Positions 4,285 to 23,450 of a stretch of 39,094 nt of DNA are shown here, one piece after another (position 1 is the first letter of the stretch; every line of letters begins with the position of its first letter). Location of the stretch: positions 1 to 39,094 of the forward strand of contig WRAZ01000018.1 of NCBI GenBank assembly GCA_009779925.1, read 5' to 3'. The notes beneath the pieces are model-generated. The model saw only the letters and a list, made by a program, of their open reading frames with translations, did no database searches and had not been told where the DNA came from. The DNA comes from Chitinivibrionia bacterium (GTDB lineage: Bacteria > Fibrobacterota > Chitinivibrionia > Chitinivibrionales > Chitinivibrionaceae). The translations under genes and the position numbers were made by a program.

Positions 4285-4566
4285 TTAGTGATAATCTGTT
4301 AATTCGACGCTTTCCGCACTATTGTTAATCCATACAAAGCAAATTCTGTATTGATTGTTTATGCGAATACTGTATTGTCCTTTGCGGTTGCCGCTAAGTT
4401 TTTCCAAGTGATTTGACGGCGGCTGGCGCAAATCGCTTATATTGGTAGACCTATCCAAAAAGTCTAGTTTTACCATTGCGCGCAATTGTATTTCTGTCGG
4501 AAATTTTTTAGAATGTTCGCCGTCAAAAATTTTTTTAGTTTCTCTGTCTTTGAATGACTTTATCAT
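4285..4566 (-). CDS. higB: HigB-type (RelE superfamily) mRNA interferase toxin
   Basis: A 93-residue basic protein of the HigB/RelE fold, expected to cut mRNA on the ribosome when free of antitoxin. Family signatures seen are the N-terminal F-K-D-R-E-T-K-K-I-F segment, the central LRQPPSNHLEKLSGNRKGQ stretch, and the C-terminal SIRINNQYRICF strand that carries the active-site arginines. It overlaps the upstream antitoxin gene by 4 nt (ATGA), so the pair is translationally coupled. Gene order is antitoxin then toxin, opposite to the original higB-higA arrangement but common in related pairs with this fused-style organisation. Confidence 0.88.
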   Translation of the reverse strand: MIKSFKDRETKKIFDGEHSKKFPTEIQLRAMVKLDFLDRSTNISDLRQPPSNHLEKLSGNRKGQYSIRINNQYRICFVWINNSAESVELTDYH

Positions 4567-4883
4567 ACCGCCGCAACTCTTTGAGCTCGATTGCCGACAA
4601 TAGAAGATATGGTTTTTAATTTGCCGTGTAAATTTCGTTTTGCTAATCGTATATAATAATTATATTGCAGTCCCCAAAAGAAACCATCCGACATACCAAA
4701 GTATTTGGCAAGTTGCAAAGAGACTTCCGCGGTCAAGTCCTTACCGCCGTAAATTATAGACGCCAATTCCCAGTTTGGAATTCCTGTTGCAACAGCAACA
4801 TCATCTACACTTAAATTATACGGCTCAAAAAACTCTTCGCGAATTATTTTGCCGACGGTGCTTAGTTCAAGATATTTTGACAT
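4563..4883 (-). CDS. higA: HigA-type XRE family antitoxin
   Basis: A 106-residue helix-turn-helix protein expected to neutralise HigB and repress its own operon. The HTH covers roughly residues 25-65 (IPNWELASIIYGGKDLTAEVSLQLAKYF), matching the HigA/VapI pattern in which the recognition helix is followed by L-x-K-Y-F-G. A strong AGGAGA site lies 7 nt before the ATG at 4883, and a promoter box lies at 4905-4919, whose TATTTT is only 21 nt from the start, a position where HigA binding could block RNA polymerase. The C-terminal 20 residues are basic and not conserved. Confidence 0.88.
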   Translation of the reverse strand: MSKYLELSTVGKIIREEFFEPYNLSVDDVAVATGIPNWELASIIYGGKDLTAEVSLQLAKYFGMSDGFFWGLQYNYYIRLAKRNLHGKLKTISSIVGNRAQRVAAV

Positions 4884-4999: not shown

Positions 5000-5013
5000 G
5001 CAAATATTATTTT
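5000..5013 (+). promoter_or_regulatory. Promoter box of structured RNA copy 1
   Basis: GCAAATATTATTTT followed by ATTG. The same sequence, GCAAATATTATTTTATTG, stands before structured RNA copy 2. Counting about 7 nt from the end of TATTTT places the transcription start at the first base of the RNA's closing stem (5020). Confidence 0.55.
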
Positions 5014-5019
5014 ATTGGC

Positions 5020-5211
5020 GCGAAAATGTCGAAATGCGGGGATTTTATCTCTGCTTTTCGTCTATAACTTATTACCAACAAAGTAATAAGATAAGTTCAA
5101 CCTTTGTGGTTGTTCTGTCTAACTGTCTTATTGCTTTTCAGGTTATAGATAAAATTCGACATTTTCGCAAAAAATATGAATTTTGGCGGAACAGCCTTTT
5201 TCCTCTGTTTC
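5020..5211 (+). ncRNA. Pseudoknotted structured RNA, copy 1
   Basis: Closing stem P1 is 14 bp and perfect (5020-5033 with 5155-5168). Inside it are a hairpin of 8 bp with G-U pairs (5036-5043 with 5047-5054), an 8-bp stem TCTATAAC / GTTATAGA (5061-5068 with 5142-5149), a perfect 8-bp hairpin CTTATTAC / GTAATAAG (5068-5075 with 5083-5090) and a 5-bp hairpin CAACC / GGTTG. The loop strand GGTTGTTCTG (5108-5117) can pair over 10 bp, with two G-U, to CGGAACAGCC (5187-5196) beyond P1, making a pseudoknot. That downstream strand can instead fold with CTGTTTC (5205-5211). Every element recurs in copy 2 at 20480-20680. I do not recognise a known RNA class. The 528-nt gap between higA and the gene at 5412 is otherwise occupied only by the short ORF at 5243. 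Confidence 0.65.
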
Positions 5212-5242
5212 TGTCAATTCTTTAATATAAAGGGGTTGTAGA

Positions 5243-5344
5243 ATGTGTGAAATTAATATTTTTCTGCTTATTTTGCTTGCTATCATAGCAATTCACATAG
5301 GCAAGATATTATGTCGTTTGCTTTCTATTCCGAGCTCGTTTTGA
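5243..5344 (+). CDS. 33-residue hydrophobic peptide, possible signal-peptide remnant
   Basis: ATG at 5243 with AGGGG about 8 nt upstream; 33 codons to TGA. Most of it is one hydrophobic helix (I-F-L-L-I-L-L-A-I-I-A-I) then a basic tail. The start codon lies 47 nt after the pseudoknot of RNA copy 1; in copy 2 the equivalent distance is 51 nt to the start of the beta-barrel gene, and the spacer sequences are alike (CTGTTT, then a T-rich stretch, then ATA-AGG-G). The N-termini are also alike (M-x-x-x-N-x-F, then a hydrophobic core). It is either a small membrane peptide or the leftover signal peptide of a lost barrel gene. Confidence 0.35.
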   Translation: MCEINIFLLILLAIIAIHIGKILCRLLSIPSSF

Positions 5345-17446: not shown

Positions 17447-18129
17447 TGATATGTGAAAAATGCGGAAAACCTGCGATAAGCCAAATCACTTCGGTAGTCA
17501 ACGGGAAAAAGGAAGAGCGACACTATTGCGGCGAATGTTTCGCTCGTATTGCCCCGTTCGGGAATATTGCGAGCAACTTTAATCTGCCCATAATGCCTAT
17601 AATACAAATAGAAGAAATCAGCCGAAACGAAGAATACGAGGACGACGGGCTTAACGAAAACGGTGTTCCTTACGAATACGATTGCGGCGACGACGAAGGA
17701 TGTTGCGGCGGCGTTCCGGCGTTTTTGCAAAATATGGTGATGTCTTTTGCGGGTGATTTGTTCGGAAGAGCGGCGACGCCTCGTTCAAATAAAGGCGACG
17801 CTTCGCTGGCGAAAAACCAAGCTCCGAAAGGACCGATTATTCAGTGTTCGGGTTGCGGAATTTCTTCGGAAGACGTCGAAAAAATGCAAAAAGCGGGTTG
17901 TGCAAAATGTTATAGCACATTCGAAAATATTCTTATGAAAAAACACAACCGTTTCAGCGAAGGCAAAGCATACAGCGGTAAATATTACAGTCCCAAAATC
18001 GTTTGGAACGACATTGAGCACCTTCAAAGCGAGTTAAATCTTGCCGTGAAAAACCAAAACTTTGAGTTGGCGGCGAAAATTCGAGACGGAATGAAAACTT
18101 TGCAGACAAAGAGGGCAACTGCTGAATGA
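17443..18129 (+). CDS. mcsA: McsA-like zinc-finger protein (UVR domain)
   Basis: A 228-residue protein with four C-x2-C knuckles: C-E-K-C and C-G-E-C near the N-terminus (about 4-30), then C-S-G-C and C-A-K-C (about 131-155). The C-terminal UvrB/UvrC motif N-F-E-L-A-A-K-I-R-D is at about 206-215. This is the layout of McsA, the activator of arginine kinase McsB in Firmicutes. An acidic linker containing a Cys-Cys pair separates the two halves. It overlaps lolD and mcsB by 4 nt each, so lolD-mcsA-mcsB are translationally coupled. Its partner McsB here seems catalytically dead, so the pair may act as an adaptor or scaffold instead (inference). Confidence 0.9.
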   Translation: MMICEKCGKPAISQITSVVNGKKEERHYCGECFARIAPFGNIASNFNLPIMPIIQIEEISRNEEYEDDGLNENGVPYEYDCGDDEGCCGGVPAFLQNMVMSFAGDLFGRAATPRSNKGDASLAKNQAPKGPIIQCSGCGISSEDVEKMQKAGCAKCYSTFENILMKKHNRFSEGKAYSGKYYSPKIVWNDIEHLQSELNLAVKNQNFELAAKIRDGMKTLQTKRATAE

Positions 18130-19280
18130 AGGAAGCCCAATATCTTGTCCGAACGCAACCTAAATGGCTCGAAATCGATAAATCATCAACTAAAAATCCC
18201 GCGATAGTTTTGTCGCAGAAATTCGGTTTATCGCGCAACATAAAAAAGTATCCTTTCCTCGAAAATTCGATTGCTTCAGAGAAAGAGTCTATATACAATG
18301 ACGTTTTGGACGCTATTAAAAAAGCGAAAATCTACAGCGAAGAAGATTTTGTCGAAATGAACCTTTTGACGGGTAGTAATATTATTGAAATGTTGCTTTT
18401 TGAAAAGGATATAATTCCCGCATACACAATGAGTTGCGATTGGATGCGCGGGGCTGTTGCAGGTATGGGAAATACTGCGCCGATTATTTTGGTGAATACA
18501 AAAAATCATTTGGATATTATATCTTTCTGCGACATCGGAAACGAAAAACAAACGCTTGCCAAGCTCAACGAGGCGGATAACGTTTTGGGCGAGGAATTGC
18601 TTTACGCCTACGAGCCCCGTTTGGGTTTTTTGACGGCAAAGCCCGAAGAGTGTGGCAGTGGACTTTGGGTAGAGACTGTAGTTCATCTTCCCGCGCTTGT
18701 ATTGCTTGAAGAAATGACCGAAACCATTAACGGCTTGCTTGTTATGGGAGCGACAATCCAAGGACTTTACAACGAAAGATACGACGCTTGGGGCGGATTT
18801 TTTAAAGTAATGGTCGGCTCGTTTTCGAGCTTGGACGAAGACGGAATTATCGAAAAAACGCGAGAAATTCAAAACGCATTGATAACAGCCGAAACCAAAG
18901 CGAGAAAACGGCTTTTTAAAGAGGCGAAAATCGTTATGGAAGACAAAGTTTTCCGCAGTTTCGGAATGATGAAATATGCAAGAGTTATGCCGCTTTCACA
19001 ACTTTTTAATTTTATGTCGTTGCTTAGACTTGGAAGCGAATACAAAGTTATTCCTATAAATCTGAAAATTCTTAACGTGCTTTTTGAGCGCGGTTTTTCC
19101 GCCAATTTACTTTTGGCTTCGGGCGAAAGCGGCAGTATCGTTTCTCCTGAAGACATAGACGTTGAGCGGGCTAATCTGTATCGCTTTATTCTGAGAAACA
19201 TTGAAGCTCAAATGAATTTCAACGAAAAAAAAGAAAAGCCGATTTCGCGTAAAAATAAAGAAGAAAGAGTGCCGTTTTGA
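18126..19280 (+). CDS. mcsB: McsB-type protein arginine kinase homologue, probable pseudokinase
   Basis: A 384-residue homologue of McsB (phosphagen kinase fold) by clear full-length similarity, e.g. VHLPALVL, M-E-D-K-V-F-R-S-F-G, L-R-L-G, and the closing D-I-D-x-x-R-A-x-L. Against the B. subtilis motifs as I remember them, active-site segments are replaced: S-S-R-I-R-L-A-R-N reads SQKFGLSRN (30-38); N-E-E-D-H-I-R reads NTKNHLD (124-130); the Cys loop C-P-T-N-V-G-T-G-L-R reads KPEECGSGLW (172-181); R-G-x-Y-G-E-G reads Q-G-L-Y-N-E-R (212-218). Phosphagen-binding arginines, both catalytic acids, the loop cysteine at its usual place and the ATP-contact Arg are thus missing. The fold is probably kept and catalysis lost. 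Coupled to mcsA and ridA by overlaps. Confidence 0.85.
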   Translation: MKEAQYLVRTQPKWLEIDKSSTKNPAIVLSQKFGLSRNIKKYPFLENSIASEKESIYNDVLDAIKKAKIYSEEDFVEMNLLTGSNIIEMLLFEKDIIPAYTMSCDWMRGAVAGMGNTAPIILVNTKNHLDIISFCDIGNEKQTLAKLNEADNVLGEELLYAYEPRLGFLTAKPEECGSGLWVETVVHLPALVLLEEMTETINGLLVMGATIQGLYNERYDAWGGFFKVMVGSFSSLDEDGIIEKTREIQNALITAETKARKRLFKEAKIVMEDKVFRSFGMMKYARVMPLSQLFNFMSLLRLGSEYKVIPINLKILNVLFERGFSANLLLASGESGSIVSPEDIDVERANLYRFILRNIEAQMNFNEKKEKPISRKNKEERVPF

Positions 19281-19706: not shown

Positions 19707-20444
19707 TTAAAACAACAAGCTAATACCGAGATTAGTTTTCAAATTAATTGAACTTCTGGACTCATCGCTAAACCCTCTTTCGCGCAACTCTGTTCGTTGC
19801 ACGTTAATAAAACTAAATCCGAAATTTAATGCAACCCAATCACGATAAATACTTATATCGTTGCCAATCGAGTGATTTCTGAATTTAAGCTCTGCGTTGG
19901 AAGCTCCCCAATCTCTTAAATATTTACTGGGCATTGAACCCAAAGCGACCGAATAAATTATACGATATTGCAATTTCATATTTTGGTTAATAAGCCACTC
20001 ATATCCAATTCTTGGCGACAAAACAAATTGCGGAATCCTGTATTCAACTTCTCGCGTCCAATTTCCCATAATTTCATCACCCCATCTGTCAAAATGCCAA
20101 TTACGGTCCATATATCGCCAAGCGCTGAAATTTAATCCGACTTCCGTTCCGACAATTACGTGATTGATAAATTCGTAATGGAGATTAAAACTGATATTAC
20201 GCATAACATCTCTGGTAGTACCGAATTCTTCGTCATACCATAAAGTGTTGGCTCCTAATCCGAATTTAATCCCGAAATCCGAAACGCCTTGTCTTCGTGC
20301 GAAATTAGCCATAAACATCCCGACTTCATTATCTCGCTGAATACCAATACCAATACGATTGTAATTGCCCATTATATCTGCTTTGGCGCACATAACCAAT
20401 GCCAACAATATAACTAAAGCTTTAAAAAAATTAAATTTTCCCAT
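19707..20444 (-). CDS. Outer-membrane beta-barrel protein
   Basis: A 245-residue exported protein. Signal peptide about 1-22 (hydrophobic A-L-V-I-L-L-A-L-V-M-C, then A-K-A-D). The mature part alternates amphipathic strands with aromatic girdles (e.g. N-F-S-A-W-R-Y-M-D-R-N-W-H-F) and ends in L-G-I-S-L-L-F, a C-terminal Phe strand recognised by the BAM machinery. I count roughly eight to ten strands; no family assigned. GGAGG precedes the ATG at 20444. The transcript leader is structured RNA copy 2, ending 35 nt before the start codon, so expression may be controlled by that RNA. Confidence 0.75.
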   Translation of the reverse strand: MGKFNFFKALVILLALVMCAKADIMGNYNRIGIGIQRDNEVGMFMANFARRQGVSDFGIKFGLGANTLWYDEEFGTTRDVMRNISFNLHYEFINHVIVGTEVGLNFSAWRYMDRNWHFDRWGDEIMGNWTREVEYRIPQFVLSPRIGYEWLINQNMKLQYRIIYSVALGSMPSKYLRDWGASNAELKFRNHSIGNDISIYRDWVALNFGFSFINVQRTELRERGFSDESRSSINLKTNLGISLLF

Positions 20445-20479
20445 AATACCAACCTCCTATAAAGTTGAAAAGTTAAAGC

Positions 20480-20680
20480 AAAAACAGCGGGAAAGGCTGT
20501 TCCGCCGGTAATTCGTGTTTTTTTGCGAAAAATGCAGAATTTTCTGTTGTTATTGTTAAACAACCAAAGAGTAAGCAGAACAACCTATAAAGGCAATTCT
20601 ACTCTTGATTGATTTTTTCATCAAGAAATTAACATAACAGAACGCAGAGAAGAAATCTCTGCAATCTGCATTTTTCGCAA
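20480..20680 (-). ncRNA. Pseudoknotted structured RNA, copy 2 (leader of barrel gene)
   Basis: Minus strand. Closing stem P1 is 16 bp and perfect (20665-20680 with 20523-20538). Inside: hairpin GCAGAGA / TCTCTGC (20656-20662 with 20644-20650), an imperfect stem CTGTTATGTTAA with TTAACAATAACAACAG, and hairpin TCTTGAT / ATCAAGA. Loop strand GGTTGTTCTG (20576-20585) pairs with CGGAACAGCC (20495-20504) over 10 bp beyond P1. The same CGGAACAGCC can instead form AACAGC / GCTGTT (20496-20501 with 20483-20488) followed by a T-run, which looks like a terminator. Each part has its counterpart in copy 1, with compensatory changes in P1. This suggests a leader RNA switching between pseudoknot and terminator. 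It explains most of the 426-nt gap before clpB. Confidence 0.68.
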
Positions 20681-20684
20681 CAAT

Positions 20685-20698
20685 AAAATAATATTTGC
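20685..20698 (-). promoter_or_regulatory. Promoter box of structured RNA copy 2
   Basis: GCAAATATTATTTT followed by ATTG, identical to the box before copy 1. A start about 7 nt downstream falls at the GCG that opens the closing stem. Confidence 0.55.
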
Positions 20699-20870: not shown

Positions 20871-23450
20871 ATGAACCAAGAAAAATGGACTCAGAAAACT
20901 CAGGAGGCAATCCAAAGCGCTTACGGATACGCGGCGGCGAGCGGGCATCAGGAAATAGGGAATTGGCATATAATTAAGGCGCTTTTTTCCGATAACGACG
21001 GGACGATTGCAACTTTGTGCCAAAAATTAGGATTAAGCGCAAATTCGGTGATTGATTTTGCCGAAACTATGCTCAAAAAACTGCCTGTTGTCAGCGGCTC
21101 TGGAGCAAATTCCACCACTCTTTCGAGAGATGGAATGATTGCTTTGACCAAAGCCGAAGAAAAAGCAAAGAAAAACGGCGACGAATTTTTGAGCGTGGAG
21201 CATATATTTGAGGCGATTTTGGAAAATGCGGCGGACGTGCGCGATTATTTTTCGCGAAACGGAATAACCGCGGCAAACTTTGAGAAAGAATTAAAGGCAA
21301 TTCGCGGGAATAATCGCGTGGTATCGCAAAATCCCGAGCAAACGGACGGAGTTTTGCAAAAATACGCCATCGATTTAACGCAAAAAGCGGCGAAAGGACA
21401 ACTCGACCCTGTAATTGGTCGCGACGACGAAATTAGGCGCGTTATGAGAATTTTGTCGCGCAAAACCAAAAATAATCCCGTGCTTGTCGGCGACCCCGGG
21501 GTCGGAAAAACCGCCATTGCCGAAGGTTTGGCTATACGTATAATAAAAGGCGACGTTCCCGAAGGGCTGAAAGACAGAAAACTTTTGGCGTTGGATATGG
21601 GCGCGCTTATTGCGGGGGCAAAATTTCGCGGCGAATTTGAAGAGCGGCTTAAAGCAGTGCTCAAAGAAGTAAAAGAAAGCGACGGCGGCATAATTCTTTT
21701 TATCGACGAATTGCATACGGTCGTTGGCGCGGGCGCGGCGGAAGGCGCAATGGACGCGGGAAATCTGCTGAAACCTATGCTTGCTCGCGGCGAATTGCAC
21801 TGTATCGGCGCAACTACCAACGACGAATATCGCAAATATGTCGAAAAAGACGCGGCGTTGGAGCGCAGATTTCAGAAGGTTTTTGTGTCGCAACCGAGCG
21901 TTGAAGACACTGTTTCGATACTTCGCGGACTAAAAGAGCGCTACGAAAGCCACCACGGGATTGCTATTCGGGACTCGGCTTTGGTAGCGGCGGCAACGCT
22001 TTCGGACAGATATATCGCCGACAGATTTTTGCCCGACAAAGCTATTGACTTGGTCGATGAAGCGGCGGCGAAAGTTCGCACGGAAATCGATAGTTCACCT
22101 GTAGAAATCGACGAAGTAAACAGAACGGAATTACAGTTGCAGATTGAAATTGAAGGGCTGAAAAAAGAAAAAGACGATGTTTCAAAGCGCCGTCTCGAAG
22201 AAATAAAGAAAAAACTTGCCGAAGTCCAAGAGAAAAAACGAGATTTGACCGCTCGTTGGGAAGTGGAAAAACAGCGCGTGGAAAAATCGCAAAAAATCCG
22301 CAAAACGCTCGAAGAAAAACGTCTCGAACTCGAAAAAGCGGAGCGAAATTACGATCTTAACACGGCGGCGCAACTTAGGCACGGCGAAATACCAACTCTC
22401 GAAGAACAGCTGAAACGAGCGGAAATTGAGGCGGCAAGTCGTGAAAATAATCTTTTGCGCGAAGAAATAAGCGAGGAAGATATTGCCGCAATCGTTTCGC
22501 AATGGACGGGAATTCCCGTGAGCAAGTTGGTGCAAAGCGAAAAACAAAAACTGCTCGCTTTAACGGAACATTTGCACGAAAGAGTTGTCGGACAAGACGA
22601 GGCGGTTGATGTGGTGGCGCAGGCGGTTTTGCGGGCGAGAGCGGGGCTTAACGACCCAAATCGTCCCGTAGGAAGTTTTATGTTTTTGGGACCTACAGGC
22701 GTAGGAAAAACCGAACTTGCACGGGCTCTGGCGCAAAATTTATTCGACAGCGAAAAGGCGCTTATCAGAATTGATATGAGCGAGTATATGGAAAAACACG
22801 CAGTTGCTCGGCTCATAGGCGCGCCCCCCGGATATATCGGTTTTGACGACGGCGGTCAATTGACCGAGGCAGTTCGTCGTCGTCCGTATTCGGTGATTTT
22901 GTTTGACGAAATCGAGAAAGCGCATCCCGATACTTTTAACGTTTTGTTGCAACTTTTGGACGACGGACGACTTACCGACGGCAAAGGGAGAGCGGTGGAT
23001 TTTCGCAATACTATAGTTATTATGACGTCGAATTTGGCAAGCGACGTTATTGCCGAAAATGCGGACAGAGATTCAGTAGAATTTGCGGACGAGATTGACA
23101 ATGTTTTAAAGCAGCATTTCCGCCCCGAATTTTTGAACAGAATTGACGAGCGCGTGATTTTCACGTATTTGGATAAGGAGCAGTTGTCAAAAATTGTTGA
23201 AATGCAGATGGAGAACTTCCGCAAGCGCCTGAAGACTTTGCTCATAGAATTGAAAACCACGCCCGCGGCGCTCGAACTTATCGCCGAAACGGGTTATGAG
23301 CCGCAATACGGCGCAAGACCGATTAAGCGTACAATTCAGCGCCTTGTAGAGACTCCCGCTTCGCGAATGCTTATTTCGGGAGAACTAACGGCAGGAAAAA
23401 CTCTTGCATTAGACAGCAACGGTTTTGAGGTTGTATTGAAAGCGGAGTAA
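20871..23450 (+). CDS. clpB: ClpB protein disaggregase
   Basis: An 859-residue AAA+ disaggregase that works with DnaK to rescue aggregated proteins. Domain order: Clp-N repeats (1-150); AAA-1 with Walker [10 protein letters not shown] (about 207-215), Walker [10 protein letters not shown] and A-T-T-N-D-E-Y-R; the long coiled-coil M domain (about 395-525) containing [17 protein letters not shown], which marks ClpB rather than ClpC; and AAA-2 with Walker [12 protein letters not shown] (about 607-617) and G-A-P-P-G-Y-I-G-F pore loop. No ClpP-docking tripeptide loop is evident. AGGAGAAGG lies before the ATG. A sigma-54-type promoter rather than a heat-shock promoter precedes it, which is unusual. 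The McsA/McsB pair is encoded 1.6 kb away. Confidence 0.96.

Follow-up and report, generated by a model that had tools for sequence, protein, structure and literature searches.

The 39,094-nucleotide window analysed here, which is the whole stretch of DNA under study (contig WRAZ01000018.1 of a Chitinivibrionia bacterium), carries on each strand a copy of a sequence with the look of a folded RNA. The question raised by this locus is whether the two copies represent a genuine class of regulatory RNA that has escaped description and, if so, how such an RNA might act upon the genes that follow it.

Anatomy of the element

The features of the two copies are listed below in window coordinates, with helices P1 to P6 named in order.

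5000-5017, plus strand: promoter-like block of copy 1, GCAAATATTATTTTATTG, read from the sequence
5008-5013, plus strand: -10-like TATTTT of copy 1, 12 nt before P1
5020-5168, plus strand: P1-closed domain of copy 1, from folds and from covariation of P1, P2 and P4 over 80 copies
5020-5033/5155-5168, plus strand: P1 of copy 1, 14 bp
5036-5043/5047-5054, plus strand: P2 of copy 1
5060-5070/5140-5150, plus strand: P3 of copy 1, from the minimum-energy fold and seen copy by copy in folds
5080-5093/5124-5137, plus strand: P4 of copy 1, the conserved central stem, 14 bp
5098-5112, plus strand: P5 of copy 1, a weakly supported apical hairpin (CAACC/GGTTG) competing with the pseudoknot
5108-5119, plus strand: 5' strand of the pseudoknot, GGTTGTTCTGTC, in the apical loop, pairing with 5185-5196
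5185-5196, plus strand: 3' strand of the pseudoknot, GGCGGAACAGCC, outside P1
5183-5217, plus strand: P6 hairpin of copy 1 (5183-5191/5209-5217), which uses the pseudoknot 3' strand and hence excludes the pseudoknot
5229-5238, plus strand: ribosome-binding site of copy 1 with GGTTG extension, AAAGGGGTTG, read from the sequence
5243-5344, plus strand: predicted small hydrophobic open reading frame after copy 1, 33 aa, MCEINIFLLILLAIIAIHIGKILCRLLSIPSSF
20681-20698, minus strand: promoter-like block of copy 2, the same 18 bases as in copy 1, with TATTTT at 20690-20685
20495-20680, minus strand: leader RNA copy 2, model match of 76.4 bits, E 6e-18
20680-20665/20538-20523, minus strand: P1 of copy 2
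20606-20599/20574-20567, minus strand: P4 of copy 2
20585-20574/20506-20495, minus strand: pseudoknot of copy 2
20450-20458, minus strand: ribosome-binding site of copy 2, AGGAGGTTG
19707-20444, minus strand: gene after copy 2, 245 aa, with a hydrophobic signal-like N-terminus, MGKFNFFKALVILLALVMCAKA, and no Pfam family

The first-pass annotation had described in copy 1 the 14-bp closing stem, an apical hairpin, an inner stem and a complementarity between the loop 5108-5117 and positions 5187-5196. All four are present, the inner stem taking the form of P3 in the minimum-energy fold and the complementarity reaching 12 bp when extended to the pseudoknot strands listed above. Also found as described were copy 2 on the minus strand, the compensated change in the inner half of P1 between the two copies and the identical promoter-like block upstream of both (5000-5017; 20698-20681). 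An 8-bp hairpin at 5068-5090 does exist in copy 1, but it did not hold as a family feature: when 58 copies were tested for pairing of the P4 5' arm with upstream sequence, the mean z was 0.03. Family-wide, the 3' arm of this hairpin belongs to P4, a stem that had been overlooked.

Across the family, P1 closes the structure with 10-22 bp. Inside it lie a hairpin and a central stem of some 11 bp, and a pseudoknot of 12 bp, GGYUGUUCUGYC/GGCRGAACAGCC, completes the anatomy.

Copy number and distribution

Two copies had been reported at first, and this number falls far short: the host genome (2.5 Mb; Chitinivibrionia, Fibrobacterota) holds about 59 dispersed copies and G001, the sole other species of the genus examined, about 19, as counted in selected loci with the covariance model R1, two weak extra matches in one locus (L131) being left out. 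R1 spans 167 positions and was built from 28 copies aligned on their helices, the variable linkers being set to N. Run over the whole host genome it returned 54 matches at E <= 0.01, and a DNA search of the same genome returned 30 places.

Beyond the genus, no match to the leader RNA was obtained at E <= 0.001 under strict filters in the other genomes among 168 of the phylum, and a more sensitive search of three genomes of the same family gave chance-level matches and nothing more. Elsewhere in the family and order, other genera were set aside as carriers, their matches being at chance level and the best one in the family (G004, E 0.023) resembling coding sequence. Exact pattern scans of genome contigs and viral contigs yielded 28 and 2 stretches respectively; scored with the model, these loci were strong in two Chitinivibrionia cases (68.5 and 75.5 bits), and the others did not exceed 14.6 bits.

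Many dispersed copies in a single genus, with several clustered on one contig (C24), would suit a MITE-like mobile repeat or an element of DNA-level recombination, with hairpins that act in movement and not in regulation. The copies, however, share a median pairwise identity of 66%, keep their helices by two-sided changes, are oriented to gene starts at a set distance and contain G-U pairs in all helices (4.8% in P1, 17% in P2, 9% in P4), as RNA would. The near-identical copies inserted regardless of genes that such an element would leave were not found, and we regard this explanation as highly improbable.

The host is presumably of termite-gut origin, judging from the isolate series to which its congener G001 belongs. 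The 16S family search of its assembly came out blank, yet a 118-base 16S end is present on contig C79.

Evidence for a conserved RNA structure

The leader is a conserved secondary structure maintained by compensatory changes. In the alignment of 80 matches (A4), standard pairs occupy 95.5% of cells against 57.8% after shuffling and two-sided changes number 696 against 190 ± 16 in shuffles, figures which lean towards structure because A4 was obtained by fitting to the model, whose training helices had been picked as the best ones; the pairing signal collapses once partners slide by one column. A P1 of at least 12 bp arises in 0.1% of dinucleotide shuffles and in 28/28 copies tested (12-21 bp), while P4 is weaker on its own, 14% of dinucleotide shuffles reaching 8 bp. 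Among close paralogues (eight copy pairs), P1 showed 94 unchanged pairs, 13 two-sided changes, 6 one-sided changes and 8 broken pairs, and in the same sequence-only alignment P4 was poorly kept, with 25 broken.

The two pseudoknot strands pair in almost every copy, their complementarity having been among the selection criteria of the 71-copy set, and vary mainly by G-U exchanges, with a two-sided change from G-C to A-U in one copy (L132). For this reason the support for the pseudoknot comes less from covariation than from conserved complementarity. The pseudoknot is also the sole long stretch with almost invariant letters, the stems varying freely, and this concentration of conserved letters fits one common partner; a common factor recognising the pseudoknot is thereby suggested as the trigger of strand exchange.

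Position and downstream genes

In 55/71 copies the first base of a TATTTT/TATATT-like box stands 11 or 12 nt upstream of P1, and a ribosome-binding site with an open frame follows within 150 nt downstream in 67/71, the start codon lying 16-144 nt (mostly 39-117) after the pseudoknot. The element thus appears, from these sequence signals, to lie between a promoter-like box and a gene start on the same strand, and the earlier proposal that it is a leader is well supported. The predicted transcription start is the first base of P1.

It might instead be supposed that the leader gives rise to a separate small RNA, or forms a platform for a global RNA-binding protein such as CsrA, with its target elsewhere or with several targets. 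One CsrA gene is present in the host genome, GGA stands beside the loop in some P2 hairpins and one copy (L093) seems to precede a broken gene. However, not all P2 hairpins have GGA, which sits in the paired arm, 67 of the 71 copies keep their downstream ribosome-binding site, and Hfq, considered as a partner, was not detected in the host genome; we hold this supposition to be very unlikely.

The proteins encoded directly downstream of the leaders are mostly of the surface or secreted kind. A hydrophobic N-terminus (signal-peptide, lipoprotein or membrane type) was found in 51/67 of them and in 46/176 other genes of the same loci (p = 2e-12), the classes being assigned by a simple hydropathy rule and not by a trained predictor, with a greater length demanded of the controls and with doubt about a few of the chosen starts. 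The Pfam scan of nine downstream proteins includes OmpA, GLUG, leucine-rich-repeat, LpoB-like and glycine-rich proteins.

Several smaller observations were made at these loci. The large leader-linked proteins (L009, L021, L024, L026, L097, L103) share near-identical signal peptides, MGKF.KVLAA, and a common C-terminal domain of about 100 aa, ..SGRFVANGTYLIIVEATGISGRRFTYSARIGV, which is possibly an export or anchoring tail. At least six leader copies are clustered at 10.5-29 kb of host (G000) contig C24 (L011, L099, L101), where two of them precede near-identical 27-aa hydrophobic peptides. Within the window, what looks like a toxin-antitoxin pair, composed of a HigB-like toxin gene and a helix-turn-helix gene, occupies 4285-4883 of the minus strand, immediately upstream of copy 1. 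The gene after copy 2 lies between genes for an McsB-like ATP:guanido phosphotransferase (18126-19280, plus) and a Clp ATPase (20871-23450, plus).

Comparison with known regulatory RNAs

A search of 4227 Rfam families, including T-box, c-di-GMP, Termite-flg and 6S, gave no match in the window at the gathering score, and at E <= 5 in nine loci nothing was found at the leader element. A SAM-II match of 30.9 bits (L004, positions 668-726) was discarded, being below the cut-off of 44 and situated between two gene ends. The literature search, confined to open-licence papers in which absence is weak evidence, returned no description of the leader RNA. The initial suggestion of an undescribed structured regulatory RNA class is supported by the dozens of covarying homologues which the covariance-model search recovered and by the lack of a matching Rfam family for the element even at a relaxed E-value. 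Among cis-regulatory leader RNAs, a kind already known, the leader is best read as forming a new class, set apart by its unusual copy number and freely changing stems.

Typically, in preQ1, SAM-II, fluoride and ZTP riboswitches the 3' pseudoknot strand adjoins the expression platform. The present RNA resembles these types in being a 5' leader with the 3' pseudoknot strand outside the closing stem, a competing hairpin and a ribosome-binding site nearby, but it is without an Rfam match or a known aptamer core and its stem sequences are near-free. T-box leaders occur in many copies per genome with divergent stems, a short conserved 3' sequence and mutually exclusive pairings, all of which recur here; their targets, however, are aminoacyl-tRNA synthetase or amino-acid genes, whereas the present targets are envelope proteins and the leader has no Rfam T-box match. 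In genomes that use many c-di-GMP riboswitches one class controls many, often surface-related, genes, and the present leader is likewise one class placed before many surface-related genes, in a host genome with eleven GGDEF proteins; its architecture nevertheless differs, and the element finds no counterpart in Rfam. Termite-flg (RF01729) and Termite-leu (RF01730) are structured RNAs known only from the termite hindgut (PMC2864571). The leader shares with them a structured RNA and, given the presumed origin of its host, a termite-hindgut link, but unlike these two Rfam families it matches no Rfam family at a relaxed E-value.

Ribosome-binding site and competing pairings

The ribosome-binding site that follows the leaders is itself particular to them. 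GGUUG is found in it in 32/67 leader-linked genes and in 2/148 controls (p = 3e-17), though it could be kept for another reason. The site is also predicted to be less accessible after leaders, at 0.41, than the 0.57 obtained for control genes (p = 8e-5). Beyond what composition would give, the site is complementary both to the strand before the loop (z of the mean -8.7) and to the pseudoknot 3' strand (z of the mean -9.0), and local hairpins around it are frequent.

A constitutive leader that senses nothing, and merely stabilises the mRNA or loads ribosomes by means of a 5'-end stem blocking 5'-end-dependent decay, would agree with several traits of P1: its length (median 17 bp), its start at the base where transcription is predicted to begin, and its scarcity of G-U pairs. 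Such a device would have no need of a near-invariant 12-bp pseudoknot or of a leader-specific ribosome-binding site, and we consider it unlikely.

P5, the pseudoknot and P6 constitute three competing pairings. The mean score of P5 lies above shuffles, but individually it passes the 95% level in only a third of copies and is weakly supported; P6 passes that level in half of the host-genome copies. Together with the complementarity of the ribosome-binding site and the frequent local hairpins, this competition suggests translation control by strand exchange. P6 is missing in most G001 copies, where the 3' part is different, and this counts against the translation-control explanation.

The same hairpin could be viewed as a terminator or pause hairpin, with the pseudoknot as antiterminator, in a control of transcription. 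P6 does use the pseudoknot 3' strand, beats shuffles in half of the host copies and is followed by a U-rich stretch. On inspection, however, no clean U-run was seen directly after P6, a canonical hairpin with TTTTTG exists in the same genome downstream of copy L093, and the absence of P6 from most G001 copies weighs here too; transcription control appears quite unlikely.

Upon the structure, copy number, position, target class and leader-specific, less accessible ribosome-binding site computed here, the reading that we favour, with belief and doubt in about equal measure, is that of a 5' leader RNA acting in cis, which serves a large regulon made up mostly of surface or secreted proteins and would exert its control mainly on translation, through mutually exclusive pairings. 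Transcription would start at the first base of P1 and the RNA would fold into the P1-closed domain containing P2, P3 and P4, whose apical loop, GGYUGUUCUGYC, would reach across P1 and pair with GGCRGAACAGCC just outside. The pseudoknot 3' strand could alternatively form P6 and its 5' strand P5, while the downstream ribosome-binding site, AGGAGGUUG, would often be held in local hairpins and could also pair with the conserved ACARCC strands to which it is complementary. A common signal, be it one protein, a small molecule or a physical condition, would shift the pseudoknot against its alternatives, and the shifted balance would change ribosome access to the start site. We infer both the two-state switch and the existence of the signal, whatever its nature.

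Locking the pseudoknot in the folding model lowered the accessibility of the site from 0.38 to 0.30; a scheme in which the pseudoknot opens the ribosome-binding site is therefore not supported. Branch migration between P1 and P2 was also rejected as a general mechanism, as the inner P1 and the P2 base overlap by at least 3 bp in only 18/71 copies, and no single strand exchange is common to all copies.

A more specific and tentative proposal, in keeping with the riboswitch-like nature first suggested, is that of a new riboswitch class, in which a small molecule, perhaps a second messenger, would bind at the pseudoknot or junction and set the translation of nearly 60 genes, mostly for surface and secreted proteins. 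If this proposal is true, the cis-RNA regulon would belong to a single class and to one bacterial genus, and its size would be unusual for a genome of 2.5 Mb. Nearly 60 leaders in such a genome, with free stems and a fixed 12-bp pseudoknot, beside which the ribosome-binding site often stays fixed too, would point to genus-specific global control of the cell surface. The roughly 80 natural variants of one RNA form a resource for finding its ligand or protein partner, as well as material on the spread and diversification of a regulatory RNA within one genome.

Two further hairpins were observed between leader and gene. A second recurring hairpin, GGCAANNAGCNNNNNGCUUUUUGC, lies between the leader and the ribosome-binding site, 32-76 nt after the pseudoknot (L019, L095, L104, L114, L122, L123, L133); in the loci read it occurs only downstream of leaders and it is common in G001, where it replaces P6. 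In a subset of copies (L011, L012, L013, L017, L021, L097, L099, L106, L107, L109, L113) a hairpin CTTTGCCG..CGGCRGAAAGG stands just before the start codon, its 3' arm containing the ribosome-binding site, and apparent compensatory changes can be seen in it by eye.
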